Assembly (NCBI GenBank): GCA_009885955.1
Contig: VFJS01000002.1
Coordinates: forward strand, 1-64,000
Direction: 5' to 3'
Source of the DNA: Spirochaetia bacterium
GTDB lineage: Bacteria > Spirochaetota > UBA4802 > UBA5550
Length of the DNA stretch: 64,000 bases
Shown piece after piece: positions 8,959 through 57,816 of this stretch (position 1 is its first letter; every line of letters starts with the position of its first letter). The notes beneath the pieces are model-generated. The model worked only from the letters and a program-made list of their open reading frames with translations. It did not search any database and was not told the DNA's origin. A program made the position numbers and the translations under genes.

Positions 8959-9504
8959 ATGGATATTAAGGAGTTCAGTTTCGATGATCTGTTTGTAATG
9001 TGCTACTCAAGATATTTTAATTCAGTGACCAGGTATATCAGTTCGCTGATTTTCAACGAGCATATCTCTGAAGAGATTGCCCAGGATGTATTCATGAAAG
9101 CCTACGAGAAGGCTGATGCAGAAAACATCTATCTAGAAAAGCTGAGAAATTTTATATTCACCATAGCAAGGAATAAAGCCTTTGATCATATAAAGAAAGA
9201 GAAGTTAGAGGCTAAAAAGTACAGGGAATATCATTTTCAGGAAGCTGAAATGGATGCAGGATTTTATACAGACCTGGAAAGTTACTGCATAGATGGAGAA
9301 ATAATATCGACCCTGAACGATACCATCAATTCATTTCCTGAAGCCCAAAGGAATCTTTACATTGATATTTTTATAAACAAAAAGCAGGTAAAAACCATCT
9401 CATCAGATTATCATATTTCAGTATACAAAATCAGGAAGATTATACGTGAAATTAATGAAAAGATTAAGGATGAACTCGGGCCGTTAATGGAAACCGTGAA
9501 TTAA
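8959..9504 (+). CDS. ECF-type RNA polymerase sigma factor
   Basis: 181 residues. Region 2 is recognisable: the opening FDDLFVMCYSRYFNSVTRYI, then ISEEIAQDVFMKAYEKA and LRNFIFTIARNKAFDHIKKEK, the core- and -10-binding helices of sigma70 region 2. Region 4 is near 115-170 (INSFPEAQRNLYIDIF and an HTH with HISVYKIRKIIREI). AGAGGTG before ATG 8959 supports the start. It directs RNA polymerase to a specific promoter set. No anti-sigma factor or membrane partner gene is adjacent: a repeat element and a DUF2934 gene follow. The codon use is AT-rich compared with the neighbours. Confidence 0.8.
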   Translation: MDIKEFSFDDLFVMCYSRYFNSVTRYISSLIFNEHISEEIAQDVFMKAYEKADAENIYLEKLRNFIFTIARNKAFDHIKKEKLEAKKYREYHFQEAEMDAGFYTDLESYCIDGEIISTLNDTINSFPEAQRNLYIDIFINKKQVKTISSDYHISVYKIRKIIREINEKIKDELGPLMETVN

Positions 9505-9703: not shown

Positions 9704-9949
9704 CTATTTATCTTCCACATACATGGTTCTGATTTCCCTCTCGGCATCGTTCCAGTCCTTATCATGATTTCCATGTATCCCGCCCCTTTCAAGGTACAGT
9801 TCATAGGCCCTTTTTTTTATCATCTCGTCAAACACCGGCCCCGGGACTTTTATTTTCTCTTCTTTTTCATATTTATGCGGCTTCAAGTTTTTTGCCTGTT
9901 TTTTATTCTCAGGACTGTCTTTTGGAACAGTTAAGGTTTTTTTCGCCAT
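9704..9949 (-). CDS. small DUF2934-type protein
   Basis: 81 residues, lysine- and proline-rich at the N-terminus. The C-terminal half (IKKRAYELYLERGGIHGNHD, then DWNDAEREI) matches the DUF2934 pattern, in which a helix with RAYELYLERG is followed by a tryptophan and an AE-R-E helix. The function of the family is unknown. A GGGGG ribosome site precedes ATG 9949. It is cytoplasmic, transcribed away from the XRE-cupin operator region, and probably shares the 170-bp divergent spacer with it. Confidence 0.65.
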   Translation of the reverse strand: MAKKTLTVPKDSPENKKQAKNLKPHKYEKEEKIKVPGPVFDEMIKKRAYELYLERGGIHGNHDKDWNDAEREIRTMYVEDK

Positions 9950-10046: not shown

Positions 10047-10109
10047 TTGACAATAATTATCATACTTTAATCATACTTAAGCTTCTTAAGTATGATTAAA
10101 GTATGATAA
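10047..10109 (+). promoter_or_regulatory. promoter -35 and 53-bp four-site palindromic operator of the XRE/cupin gene
   Basis: TTGACA at 10047-10052 is a consensus -35 box. Directly after it, 10057-10109 is a perfect inverted repeat with 25-nt arms and a 3-nt centre. Each arm contains the 9-mer AAGTATGAT (or its complement) twice, 11 bases apart, giving four half-sites in all. The palindrome covers any -10 position and ends 13 bases before ATG 10123. This is what an autoregulatory operator looks like: a dimeric regulator bound here would block its own promoter. Confidence 0.75.
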
Positions 10110-10122
10110 AATTATATTTATT

Positions 10123-10710
10123 ATGAATAAAGAATCCATTAAACATAAATTCGGCGATAAAATCAGGGAAATCCGGGAGAGAAGGGGCATAACCCTTAAA
10201 AAAGTCGCTGATGAGGCAGAGGTAAGCGAAAGCCTTGTCTCTCAGATTGAGAGGAACAGGGTATCTCCATCTATTGATACTCTTCTGGCAATTGCCTCTG
10301 TACTTGAAATTGATATTGACTACCTTTTTAAAGACTATAAACAGAATAAAAAAGTTACTATTGTCAGGAAAAATGAGAGGAAAATTATAGGGATGGAGGG
10401 GGTGATCTATACGCAGCTATCCCTTCTTTCTGATTACAAGGACGACAATTCCATTGAAGCGCTGCTCATTGAAATTGATCCATTAAAGGAAAAGGGGAGC
10501 AATGTCTACGGCCATATCGGGAAGGAGCTGGGTTTTATTCTGTCGGGAGCGGGAGAATTGCTCTATGGCAGTGAAACATACGCCATCAATGAAGGGGACT
10601 GCATCTCCTTTTCATCGGACATCCCCCACATCCTCAGGAATACCGGTGAAGAGGCGCTCAGGGCGCTATGGGTGATTACCCCGCCTAAAATGTTTTTTAA
10701 AGAAGATTGA
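10123..10710 (+). CDS. XRE-family transcriptional regulator with C-terminal cupin domain
   Basis: 195 residues. A lambda-repressor-like HTH occupies residues 12-66 (IREIRERRGITLKKVADEAE, then SESLVSQIERNRVSPSIDTL). A linker leads to a cupin domain from about 115 to 190 (HIGKELGFILSGAGELLYG and INEGDCISFSSDIPHILRN), which binds a small effector in related regulators. There is no clear ribosome site between the operator palindrome and ATG 10123, so translation is likely weak. The gene ends 29 bases before the LeuC-type start, so regulator and dehydratase are probably one transcript, controlled by the four-site operator. Likely effector: a metabolite of the LeuCD-type reaction (inference). Confidence 0.88.
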   Translation: MNKESIKHKFGDKIREIRERRGITLKKVADEAEVSESLVSQIERNRVSPSIDTLLAIASVLEIDIDYLFKDYKQNKKVTIVRKNERKIIGMEGVIYTQLSLLSDYKDDNSIEALLIEIDPLKEKGSNVYGHIGKELGFILSGAGELLYGSETYAINEGDCISFSSDIPHILRNTGEEALRALWVITPPKMFFKED

Positions 10711-10739
10711 TATGAATGCATATAACAGGAGGCAGAAGT

Positions 10740-12032
10740 ATGGGCAGGACCATAGCTGAAAAAATATTTGATTCGCACAGGATCGACAATCCGATCCCTG
10801 AAATACACGTGCTCAGGCTGGATGCCGTATTCTGTCATGAAATAACCACACCCATTGCCATTAATGACCTTGTGGCAAGAGGAAAGGACCGGGTCTTTGA
10901 TCCGGATAAAATTAAAGCGGTAATTGATCATGTTTCCCCGGCAAAAGATTCAAATACCGCTGAACAGGGAAAGACACTGCGAAGCTGGGCAAGGAGGCAC
11001 GGCATCAGGGACTTTTTTGACATCGGGCGCAACGGGGTCTGCCATGCACTCTTTCCTGAAAAGGGATTTGTGCGGCCGGGGTTTACTATCATCATGGGGG
11101 ACTCGCATACGTGTACGCATGGCGCTTTCGGAGCCTTTGCCGCGGGCGTGGGGACTACGGACCTGGAAGTGGGAATTCTGAAAGGGGTCTGCGCATTCAG
11201 GACCCCTGAAACTATCAGGGTGAATATATCGGGGACACTTCCCGAAGGAGTATACGCAAAGGATGTTATCCTCGCCATAATCGGTAAAATTGGCGTTAAC
11301 GGCGCCACCAACAGGGTGATTGAATTTACCGGGCCGGTGATTGACGCCATGACAATGGAGTCGAGGATGACGTTGTGCAACATGTCCATAGAGGCCGGTG
11401 CAACATCGGGCATATGCCTTCCTGATATGACAACGGTTGACTACCTCTGGAGTTTTATCGGGAGGGATTATTCATCAAGGGAGAAGGCGCTGGAAGACTT
11501 CAAAAAATTTCATTCTGATCCCGATGCCGTTTATTCCGGGGTGATAGAGTTTGACGGCAGCGCGATGGAGCCCATGGTGACATTCGGATACAAGCCGGAC
11601 CAGGTAAAAAGTGTGCGGGAGATGGAAGGTACCGACATTGACCAGGTCTATATAGGCTCCTGCACAAACGGAAGGCTGGAGGACCTTGAGATAGCCGCAC
11701 AGGTACTCGAGGGGAGGAAGATCAACGGCAATGTCAGGGGCATACTCTCCCCGGCCACACAGGATATATATCTCAGGGCCCTTGAAAAAGGGATCATTAA
11801 AATTTTCATGGATTCAGGGTTCTGCGTATCCAACCCAACCTGCGGCGCATGCCTGGGTATGAGCAACGGCGTCCTTGCCGAAGGGGAGGTCTGCGCTTCC
11901 ACGACCAACAGGAATTTTAATGGAAGGATGGGGAAAGGCGGAATGGTCCACCTCATGAGCCCTGCGACTGCGGCAGCAAGCGCAATTTCCGGGAAGATAA
12001 CGAATTCGCCGATATTCAGGGTAAGGGGGTAG
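10740..12032 (+). CDS. leuC: 3-isopropylmalate/homoaconitate-type dehydratase, large subunit
   Basis: 430 residues from ATG 10740, which has AGGAGG nine to ten bases upstream; an in-frame ATG 24 bases earlier lacks a site. Aconitase superfamily: GDSHTCTHGAFG at 120-131, and the three [4Fe-4S] ligands at C308 (GSCTNGR), C368 and C371 (PTCGACLG). The short length is that of the two-subunit LeuC2/HacA branch. It isomerises a 2- to 3-hydroxy tricarboxylate or dicarboxylate with the small subunit encoded next. No leuA or leuB is adjacent, so 3-isopropylmalate, homoaconitate or a methyl-substituted malate are all possible substrates. It is co-transcribed with the XRE-cupin regulator upstream. Confidence 0.85.
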   Translation: MGRTIAEKIFDSHRIDNPIPEIHVLRLDAVFCHEITTPIAINDLVARGKDRVFDPDKIKAVIDHVSPAKDSNTAEQGKTLRSWARRHGIRDFFDIGRNGVCHALFPEKGFVRPGFTIIMGDSHTCTHGAFGAFAAGVGTTDLEVGILKGVCAFRTPETIRVNISGTLPEGVYAKDVILAIIGKIGVNGATNRVIEFTGPVIDAMTMESRMTLCNMSIEAGATSGICLPDMTTVDYLWSFIGRDYSSREKALEDFKKFHSDPDAVYSGVIEFDGSAMEPMVTFGYKPDQVKSVREMEGTDIDQVYIGSCTNGRLEDLEIAAQVLEGRKINGNVRGILSPATQDIYLRALEKGIIKIFMDSGFCVSNPTCGACLGMSNGVLAEGEVCASTTNRNFNGRMGKGGMVHLMSPATAAASAISGKITNSPIFRVRG

Positions 12033-12036
12033 GATA

Positions 12037-12561
12037 ATGAAAAATTTTAGCGGAAATATACTGTTTCTCGACAGGTCGGACATCAATACCGATGAAATTA
12101 TCCCGGCCAGGTATCTTAACGAGCTGACCAAGGAGGCGCTGAAGCCCTTTCTTCTTGAAGACCTGAAGCTCAACGGGTTTAACCCTGCCAGGGATATAAA
12201 GGGAAAATCGGCAATCATCACCAGGAATAATTTCGGCTGCGGATCCTCGAGGGAGCATGCGCCATGGGCCCTGGAGATGAACGGCATAAACCTGGCCATA
12301 GCCATCGATTTCGCAAGGATTTACCGGCAGAATATGTACAACTGCGGCATGCTTGCCGTTGAACTCCCCATGGAAACCATAGACAGCCTCTTTGCCAAAT
12401 ATGCAGGAAAGAGTGCAGTCATAGAGACAGACTTAAAAAAATCGGCCTTTACCATCAGGTCCGAGGGAGATACGGATATCATCCCCTTTGAAATTTCCGG
12501 ATATGACCGCGCCCTGATTGAAGCAGGCGGATGGGTGGAATATGCCGATTCCAAGTATTAA
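12037..12561 (+). CDS. leuD: 3-isopropylmalate/homoaconitate-type dehydratase, small subunit
   Basis: 174 residues, the usual length of the small subunit. NTDEIIPARYLNE near residues 18-30 is the substrate loop, and NNFGCGSSREHAPWAL is the swivelling-domain signature. The gene starts four bases after the leuC stop, so the subunits are made together. The residues after YL in the loop are N and E. As I recall, methanogen isopropylmalate and homoaconitate enzymes carry other pairs there, so the substrate should not be taken for granted. No terminator is clear after the stop. Confidence 0.87.
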   Translation: MKNFSGNILFLDRSDINTDEIIPARYLNELTKEALKPFLLEDLKLNGFNPARDIKGKSAIITRNNFGCGSSREHAPWALEMNGINLAIAIDFARIYRQNMYNCGMLAVELPMETIDSLFAKYAGKSAVIETDLKKSAFTIRSEGDTDIIPFEISGYDRALIEAGGWVEYADSKY

Positions 12562-16147: not shown

Positions 16148-16635
16148 GACATTCCTCCTGAAAAAAATATTTTTATATAAAATAGGAAACCAACAAGATG
16201 GCTGTGCCGTCACAAATTACCATGACAAATTGTTCGAACAATTTGCAAGTTATGAGTAGAAATTATTATTGATTATCCGGGAATGTCAAGTAAAATTCAT
16301 CTATCATAGGGGCCGAAATCAGAAAAGAAATACACCCATCCCGCGTCATATCGGACGCTTTGCTCGCGATGAAGGGATGGCTTCATGAAAGCAGGATAGG
16401 CCATGCGACAGAAAGTTTAATATTAAAAACTATTATATTTATTATTTATCTCTGACACCTTCTCTATCTGTTCAAACCGAAAAAATCATAATTTGATCTT
16501 CAAATAAACAATAATCTCTGGCACTAAAATAAAATTTGTTCTATTAAATTTTTTATCTCTGACACCTGAAAATTTTTCATATTCATTAATAAAAATCGTA
16601 TATAATATATATTGATTATTATAAAAGGAATTTAC
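16148..16635. other. 488-bp intergenic region with hairpin and RAYT-linked repeats
   Basis: It holds the upstream region of the fatty acid-CoA ligase gene on the minus strand, then a hairpin at about 16336-16380 with CCATCCC/GGGATGG arms. It also holds three copies of a short motif: TATCTCTGACACCT at 16447-16460 and 16554-16567, and ATCTCTGGCAC at 16514-16524. No open reading frame is convincing. From 16420 on it is strongly AT-rich and belongs to the RAYT module. Confidence 0.6.
16447..16567 (+). repeat. three ATCTCTG(A/G)CAC repeats upstream of RAYT
   Basis: The motif occurs at 16447, 16514 and 16554 in the same orientation, about 40-70 bases apart, and once in inverted orientation (GTGCCAGAGAT, 17214-17224) over the stop of the transposase gene. 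This layout, a RAYT gene bracketed by short REP-like sequences, is the usual one for the family. Confidence 0.7.
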
Positions 16636-17226
16636 ATGGCTAGAAAACAAAGATTATGCAGAGGAAATTTGACGTATCATACATTTTCAAGATGTATTAA
16701 TAAAATGAACATGATTAAAGATGATAAAACCAAAGACTTAATGATCACCGTAATAAGGGAAACCCAGGAAATCTACAACTTTGAGCTTTCGGGTTTCGAA
16801 ATACTGAACAATCATTTCCATTTTATCATAAAAACAATTATGGGAAGTGAGACAATATCAAAAATTATGCAGAGAATTAAGTCGGTATTTGCGAAAAGAT
16901 ACAATAAAATCCATGGAAGAATCGGACCATTCTGGAATGAGAGATTCGGGTCAAAAATAATCGATGATGCAATTGATGCTGCTTCATATCTGCTGCATCT
17001 GTTATGGTACATGGCATATAACTCATTCAGGAAAAATATGGTTAATAATCCCAGACATTTTAAATATGGCTCGATAAATTGTTATCTTGATGAAAATTAT
17101 AAATCAAAACTCAAGATAAAACTTCATGATGCTTTCATAAGCCTTGGCAAGACATTTGAACAGAGGATTAAAAATTTCATCATATATGAGGAAAATTATA
17201 TAAAAGGGCTATTGTGCCAGAGATGA
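16636..17226 (+). CDS. REP-associated tyrosine transposase (RAYT, Y1/TnpA_REP type)
   Basis: 196 residues from ATG 16636 with AAGGAA upstream. The HUH metal motif is N-N-H60-F-H62-F. The context is right: the opening ARKQRLCRGNLTYHTFSRC, then GRIGPFWNERFGSK. The expected catalytic tyrosine lies in the helix SYLLHLLWYMAYNS at 118-130. Such single-strand transposases act on REP sequences as a domesticated, usually single-copy gene. The gene is much more AT-rich than its neighbours and its 3' end forms part of a repeat, so it was probably acquired as a unit. It appears intact. Confidence 0.85.
   Translation: MARKQRLCRGNLTYHTFSRCINKMNMIKDDKTKDLMITVIRETQEIYNFELSGFEILNNHFHFIIKTIMGSETISKIMQRIKSVFAKRYNKIHGRIGPFWNERFGSKIIDDAIDAASYLLHLLWYMAYNSFRKNMVNNPRHFKYGSINCYLDENYKSKLKIKLHDAFISLGKTFEQRIKNFIIYEENYIKGLLCQR
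17214..17224 (-). repeat. inverted copy of the ATCTCTGGCAC motif
   Basis: GTGCCAGAGAT is the exact reverse complement of 16514-16524 and overlaps the last codons and first base of the stop of the transposase gene. It marks the right end of the RAYT module. Confidence 0.65.
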
Positions 17227-54984: not shown

Positions 54985-54997
54985 TTGTTATTCATTG

Positions 54998-55036
54998 TCT
55001 GATGCATGGACCGGTTTATCCGGGCCATGCATCAGA
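54998..55036 (+). terminator. 39-bp hairpin between livJ and livM
   Basis: TCTGATGCATGGACCGG and CCGGGCCATGCATCAGA form a 17-bp stem with one mismatch around TTTAT, 13 bases after the livJ stop. Only a broken T-rich stretch follows. It could stop part of the transcripts or protect the livJ mRNA 3' end, which would raise the binding protein over the permeases, as REP hairpins do in other importer operons (inference). Confidence 0.6.
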
Positions 55037-55091
55037 CATAATTTACTTTTATTAAACAATAGCTGAATCTTAACGATTGTGAGAATATTTC

Positions 55092-57111: not shown

Positions 57112-57816
57112 TCAGCTTTCGAAAATAAGAATCGATCCGATATCCGCAGCTCTTTCATCGGACAGGCACACCATAATCCCACCCTGACATTCAATGAATT
57201 CGATAATATTTCTGTAATCGGGATGATCTGTTATATCTCCAGTGATATAGATATGTTCACCCCACATGCCCGAGGCCCCTCCTATGAAACCGTGGTTGTA
57301 ACCCGGCAGGGATATATGGCCCGTTGAGATTTTCAGGGAGGTTATTCCCGATTTCACTGCAGCCCCATGAATCGAAGGATCTGAAGTAATTATTGCATGC
57401 TCACTGACAATCATGGTTGAACATTTTGCATATCCCTGTCTTACATCAACAAATTCCCTTTCATGGACCCTGAGATAATCCATTATTTCAGGGTCCATGT
57501 ATTTTCTGGCGCATATAACCGATTTTCCAGTATCAGCAATATTATAGGGAATGTCCAGGGGATATTTTTTTGATAATGAGGTTTTACATATGACAATCTC
57601 CAGTAATGGCTCAATTCTTTTCAGGAAGCTCCTGTCTATATCCGGGTGGCAGAAAATTCTCTCCCTGCAAAGGAAGACCTGAAGATCAGCATGACCTGTC
57701 AGAGGTTTTTCTATAAGCTCTGTTCCCGGCAATTTTACCGGTTCAATATCATGTCGGATTAAACCCTTTGTTATTTGTTTTGAAACCCCGGATCCGATGA
57801 TTGCATATTTTTTCAT
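57112..57816 (-). CDS. conserved protein, DUF6873-like (possible GME fold)
   Basis: 234 residues from ATG 57816; the frame stays open 21 more codons but without signal or site. Features are the TGHADLQVFLCRERIFCHPD motif, YPLDIPYNIADTGKSVIC, DVRQGYAKCSTMIVSEHAII with a conserved Cys, and GFIGGASGMWGEHIYITGD. These match proteins I recall as DUF6873, thought to adopt the guanidino-group-modifying enzyme fold. His, Asp and Cys residues fit a catalytic set of that fold, but function is unknown. It is cytoplasmic. Confidence 0.55.
   Translation of the reverse strand: MKKYAIIGSGVSKQITKGLIRHDIEPVKLPGTELIEKPLTGHADLQVFLCRERIFCHPDIDRSFLKRIEPLLEIVICKTSLSKKYPLDIPYNIADTGKSVICARKYMDPEIMDYLRVHEREFVDVRQGYAKCSTMIVSEHAIITSDPSIHGAAVKSGITSLKISTGHISLPGYNHGFIGGASGMWGEHIYITGDITDHPDYRNIIEFIECQGGIMVCLSDERAADIGSILIFES

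Follow-up and report, generated by a model that had tools for sequence, protein, structure and literature searches.

The XRE-cupin proteins described so far act as repressors of neighbouring genes and do so through palindromes located in the core promoter (PMC7901475). In the Pseudomonas repressors PsdR, PauR, ErfA, and their relatives, an XRE domain is joined to a cupin domain, the site is a palindrome in the core promoter, and control extends to neighbouring metabolic genes, with autoregulation in some cases (PMC7901475); these features are present or predicted at the locus described here. This locus lies in a 64,000-nucleotide stretch of Spirochaetia DNA, the whole of which is referred to as the window, and comprises a perfect palindrome at the promoter of an XRE-cupin gene followed by genes for a LeuCD-type dehydratase. 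Based on the analyses below, the palindrome is very probably the operator of the downstream XRE-cupin protein, which would act as an autoregulating repressor of leucine biosynthesis by occluding its own promoter.

Geometry of the palindrome and gene layout

The initial annotation described a palindrome with 25-nt arms and a 3-nt centre, and an inverted-repeat search confirmed this description: the arms (10057-10081 and 10085-10109) are 100% complementary, and, within the 64-kb window, the element is the longest and the sole perfect inverted repeat of at least 16 nt when a separation of the arms of up to 40 nt is allowed. The start originally given, 10047, takes in the -35 box, and this box, which had been said to abut the palindrome, is separated from the left arm by 4 bp, so that the description was nearly right (Table 1). 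The motif AAGTATGAT occurs at 10088-10096 and 10099-10107 in the right arm and as inverted copies in the left arm, with a start-to-start distance of 11 bp, so that each arm holds two copies at the spacing that had been described.

Four ACTTWA subsites begin at 10064, 10075, 10086 (inverted), and 10097 (inverted). These steps of exactly 11 bp put the four subsites on about one face of the helix, as had been suggested, and the same register is seen across the family, in which the 11-bp direct repeat shows 61% identity and the remaining shifts between 7 and 15 give 16-38%. Together, the two inner subsites make up a 17-bp ACTTWA-N5-TWAAGT element, and 17 bp is the length typical of lambda-like dimer sites; the operator may be occupied by two dimers, as a dimer of dimers. 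When folded as a 69-nt strand, the palindrome reaches -30.9 kcal/mol, 11.9 sd below dinucleotide shuffles. Together with the match of its core to an operator conserved over dozens of genomes, this value shows that the palindrome is not a chance occurrence. Elsewhere in the window, near-perfect inverted repeats are present at 54996-55038 (19-nt arms) and 57462-57499 (18-nt arms), both containing ATGGACC, and an open reading frame at 16612-17226, which by eye resembles an IS200/REP-associated Y1 transposase, has inverted repeats at its 3' end (17074-17127 and 17169-17200).

Table 1. Coordinates of the promoter, operator, and gene features in the window
Feature	Position	Strand	Basis
-35 box TTGACA of the regulator promoter	10047..10052	+	sequence; promoter scan
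Perfect palindrome, 25-nt arms, 3-nt centre	10057..10109	.	inverted-repeat search
Outer left subsite ACTTTA	10064..10069	+	sequence; 11-bp register
37-bp operator core CTTTA-N3-ATACT-N11-AGTAT-N3-TAAAG	10065..10101	.	PWM, 57 homologous loci
Candidate -10 AATCAT, 16-bp spacer, inside left arm	10069..10074	+	scan
Alternative -10 CATACT, 19-bp spacer, inside left arm, resembles family TATACT	10072..10077	+	family comparison
Inner left subsite ACTTAA	10075..10080	+	sequence; 11-bp register
Inner right subsite, TTAAGT on + strand	10086..10091	-	sequence; symmetric PWM
Outer right subsite, TAAAGT on + strand	10097..10102	-	sequence; symmetric PWM
Probable relic of ancestral right half-operator, TTATTATGAATAAAG (L007 right half-site, TTATTATGAATAAAA)	10118..10132	.	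comparison with L007, inference
XRE (HTH_3)-cupin_2 regulator, 195 aa; cupin triad H131, E135, H169	10123..10710	+	Pfam
leuC-type large subunit	10740..12032	+	NCBIfam PRK00402, 581 bits; sequence
leuD-type small subunit, 4 bp after leuC	12037..12561	+	NCBIfam; Pfam Aconitase_C

The gene downstream of the palindrome encodes an N-terminal helix-turn-helix of the XRE/Cro-CI type (PF01381, 56 bits with a cut-off of 23) and a C-terminal cupin domain (PF07883, 51.3 bits with a cut-off of 27.2), and its AlphaFold model (pLDDT 87.7) consists of helices followed by beta strands. Just upstream lie a gene for an ECF-type sigma factor (8959-9504, plus strand) and a small DUF2934 gene (9704-9949, minus strand). 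The dehydratase is built from two separate subunits with PF00330 (Aconitase) and PF00694 (Aconitase_C), respectively. Its large subunit exceeds the PRK00402 cut-off of 385 bits and falls below both leuC equivalog cut-offs (TIGR02083, 463.6 versus 610.65 bits; TIGR00170, 369 versus 560 bits). The leuC open reading frame was listed as starting at 10716, and the ATG at 10740, preceded by AGGAGG, is the likelier start. The pair in the window is the only IPMI-type enzyme of its own genome, which encodes one LeuC-type protein, a 645-aa aconitase-type protein, and, elsewhere, leuA and leuB.

Conservation of the operator core and origin of its symmetry

Homologues of the regulator were gathered from whole genomes and genome contigs, and in 61 distinct loci the regulator homologue is followed by a LeuC relative (65-78% identity), in keeping with the proposed link between regulator and LeuCD. 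H131, E135, and H169 are invariant in all 61 leuC-linked homologues. Among the 59 leuCD-linked loci with enough upstream sequence, 57 carry the 37-bp pattern CTTTA-N3-ATACT-N11-AGTAT-N3-TAAAG upstream of the XRE-cupin gene at more than 20 bits, in Spirochaetota, Desulfobacterota, and other taxa; no clear operator was found at two leuC-linked loci, L016 and L024. The maximum score of the position weight matrix (PWM) in random sequence was 17.9 bits (six 5-Mb sequences, 30 Mb), and the window site scored 37.2 bits when it and its relative L007 were left out of training. In its own genome (4.77 Mb, 98% complete), the pattern occurs once, at the window site with 0 mismatches, and nowhere else at up to 3 mismatches; membership in a genome-wide repeat family was rejected on the basis of this single site.

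An exact TTGACA lies 10-16 bp upstream of the operator core at 39 of the 57 sites and 24 bp upstream at one more, and most of the remaining sites have a 5-of-6 match to the -35 box at a similar distance. At the conserved distance, the -10 region falls within the left arm. The right arm, for its part, reaches over the end of the Shine-Dalgarno region and includes the start codon in many relatives, such as those in the Desulfobacterales. The original proposal of a regulator operator covering the promoter is thus supported by the comparison of homologues, and the palindrome is likely to be a conserved protein-binding site, the operator of the downstream regulator.

Given its very strong fold (z -11.9) and the terminator-like sites flagged by a scan on the minus strand, the inverted repeat might instead act as RNA, in the form of a 5'-UTR hairpin (attenuator, stability element, or terminator) that controls the regulator-leuCD genes. 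However, the conserved -35/-10 layout predicts a transcription start near the centre of the palindrome, so that the plus-strand transcript would hold the right arm only, and the right-arm part by itself folds little better than shuffles (z -1.2). In the relatives, conserved pairs match at a frequency of 0.82 compared to 0.81 predicted from column make-up, and spacer pairs show a slight excess only (0.40 versus 0.31 predicted); the search of Rfam returned no credible match, only eukaryotic microRNA models far below gathering scores. The predicted start and the lack of covariation at conserved pairs led to the rejection of an intrinsic terminator or RNA attenuator, and make any RNA-based function extremely improbable.

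In a tree of 107 regulators, homologues without adjacent leuCD fall mainly into one clade of 31 (support 100), mostly from host-associated, Treponema-like Spirochaetaceae. No strong operator was found at the regulator gene in this clade, one member of which (L077) retains a weak site of 18 bits ahead of the leading gene. The regulator there generally lies downstream of an unrelated gene for a protein of about 355 aa (e.g., L066:1941-3005 and 30 similar loci), for which searches of Pfam and NCBIfam gave no match. This clade lost the operator and the leuCD neighbourhood together. This distribution bears on the identity of the bound protein, which sequence alone cannot name: another factor, such as a global amino-acid regulator, could bind the palindrome, the XRE-cupin gene being merely one of its targets. 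Yet the site is found chiefly at genes of this orthologue group, is single in its own genome, and is absent before the regulator genes of the clade no longer linked to leuCD, which renders binding by a different regulator very unlikely.

The symmetry of the window operator exceeds that of the family. Among the 18 pairs of the core, the relatives have a mean of 12.3 complementary ones, compared to 17 in the window, where a further 8 complementary bp on each side of the core are not conserved in relatives; the site shared across the family is the 37-bp core, and the outer 8 bp per side extend it to the perfect 53-bp palindrome. The core starts 58 bp before the start codon, the commonest value in relatives being 28 bp, and at the start codon itself TTATTATGAATAAAG agrees with the right half-operator of L007 at 14 of 15 positions. 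The simplest reading would be that the extended perfection arose by a lineage-specific inverted duplication of the left arm, inserted upstream of the former right half. Inverted copies of this sort are known to arise by template switching at quasipalindromes (PMC7202029).

Operator sites beyond the regulator gene

Only regulator genes went into the training of the operator model, so sites at other genes provide an independent test. Among 31 genomes with the regulator, 27 contain sites with up to 2 mismatches (about 40 sites), compared to 1 when the pattern was reversed. Allowing up to 3 mismatches makes the search noisy in AT-rich relatives, where control counts are as high as matches, and therefore only sites above about 20 bits were interpreted. 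The 26 further sites examined at this level are a subset, with three-mismatch sites covered in part, and include one in G038, an incomplete genome in which the regulator was not detected. A site of 23.2 bits (L117) was set aside, as it lies inside a gene in a genome without a detected regulator, and four sites of at most 12 bits (L237, L238, L239, and L262) were treated as chance.

Leucine or branched-chain amino-acid genes follow 21 of the 26 sites. Fourteen of these precede leuB-type genes (G021, G030, G026, G038, G098-G101, G104, G105, G109, G112, G120, and G129), two precede leuA (G113 and G122), one leuC in trans (G080), one ilvB (G117), and three precede genes for livJ-type branched-chain amino-acid binding proteins (G113, G122, and G125). 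The other five lie before panE/dapB, DUF401, MFS, EamA, and gpsA genes. Recurrence at many unrelated genes, which the initial annotation had named as an argument against its proposal, was thus not observed, and the sites at leuB, leuA, and leuC extend the link to the leucine pathway beyond adjacency. Additionally, three loci have leuA a short distance downstream of leuCD, and one other locus has leuB there.

The 21 sites indicate a leucine regulon, and together with the leu gene neighbourhoods and the leu genes of the own genome they make leucine biosynthesis the best-supported function. In some bacteria, LeuCD and LeuB take part in the synthesis of isoleucine via citramalate as well, so a broader role in branched-chain amino-acid metabolism is possible. 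Operators of 31-35 bits precede genes for a DUF401 membrane protein, an MFS protein, and an EamA transporter (L264 in G118:C35; L269 and L270 in G123); the three proteins are candidate leucine or branched-chain amino-acid transporters. In G080 (L265, L273), the operator lies before leuC, and no operator accompanies the regulator gene, which is located at another place in the genome; this arrangement suggests control of leuC in trans without autoregulation. No operator was found at leuA or leuB of the own genome, where regulation of the pathway would consequently be partial.

Some leuA sites have no obvious adjacent TTGACA, so the action at leuA may differ. These sites would fit a regulator that binds the operator as an activator or in a dual role, with which the sequence is compatible, but the operator takes a blocking position, shortly after the -35 box and overlapping the -10 region, at almost every regulator site and at the majority of leuB, leuC, and livJ sites, and the XRE-cupin proteins studied repress (PMC7901475); an activating or dual role is accordingly very unlikely.

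Proposed mechanism and relation to known systems

Repression with autorepression is favoured by the position over the promoter, the adjacency of the genes, and the published XRE-cupin precedents. In this model, the helix-turn-helix domains of the regulator would bind the four ACTTWA subsites, 11 bp apart, with two in direct orientation in each arm and the arms inverted, and the bound protein would extend over the -10 region and onwards to a point 13 bp short of the start codon. RNA polymerase would be kept off, repressing the regulator gene and the co-transcribed leuCD; in relatives, the same operator would also control leuB, leuA, ilvB, or a branched-chain amino-acid binding protein. A metabolite of the leucine pathway, perhaps chelated to a metal held by H131, E135, and H169, would probably be the signal sensed by the cupin domain. 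The operator, its conservation, its likely regulon, and the geometry of the promoter are seen in the sequences themselves; binding by this regulator, repression, cooperativity, occupancy by a dimer of dimers, and the ligand are features that we infer.

The content of the regulon favours signals of the leucine pathway (2-isopropylmalate, 2-ketoisocaproate, or leucine) over tricarboxylates as a class, and a metal-chelated 2-hydroxy or 2-keto acid of this pathway is a reasonable candidate for the cupin ligand. A fuller version, in which a widespread leucine repressor binds cooperatively as two dimers on four phased subsites, senses metal-chelated 2-isopropylmalate or 2-ketoisocaproate through its cupin domain, and in the window acts on an operator recently perfected by inverted duplication, is tentative and, taken as a whole, rather doubtful. 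To our knowledge, few ligands of XRE-cupin proteins have been established, and for a leucine-linked member the candidates are few. More generally, the analysis assigns, genome-wide and in testable form, a leucine-biosynthesis regulon of Spirochaetota and Desulfobacterota to an XRE-cupin protein, and it provides an operator model specific enough for regulon annotation in other genomes of these groups.

Sequence and fold searches of the PDB returned only distant XRE-cupin or cupin relatives, so that no ligand can be transferred to the regulator. The HTH_3 regulator 1Y9Q from Vibrio cholerae, for which we know of no target, and the fosfomycin epoxidase HppE share the combination of helix-turn-helix and cupin fold, although they are only 18-24% identical to the regulator and HppE is an enzyme. 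HppE is a close fold match and an iron-binding cupin (Fe entries in the structure search); its metal triad, H-x3-E...H, resembles H131-x3-E135...H169 of the regulator. PuuR, of putrescine utilisation, has the same domain order and is the top NCBIfam match across the full length, but the score of 73.8 bits, far below the PuuR cut-off of 211 bits, led to the rejection of this identity; the gene context is different as well.

Regulation of leucine biosynthesis is shared with LtbR/NdgR of Actinobacteria, IclR-type proteins that belong to an unrelated family and occur in other phyla (PMC6515235, PMC4340878). The literature searched, which was largely open-access, with RegPrecise itself outside its scope, contained no description of a leucine regulator of the XRE-cupin type; protein family, site type, and switch are already known, and it is the leucine regulon that is undescribed there. 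A large computational survey of XRE palindromes used widths of 15-25 bp, shorter than the 37-bp operator (PMC12565409). Compared to the Pseudomonas XRE-cupin proteins, which control uptake, polyamine, and other condition-specific functions, the regulator described here would control leucine biosynthesis, and its operator, a 37-bp array of four subsites, is unlike those described for the Pseudomonas proteins (PMC7901475).
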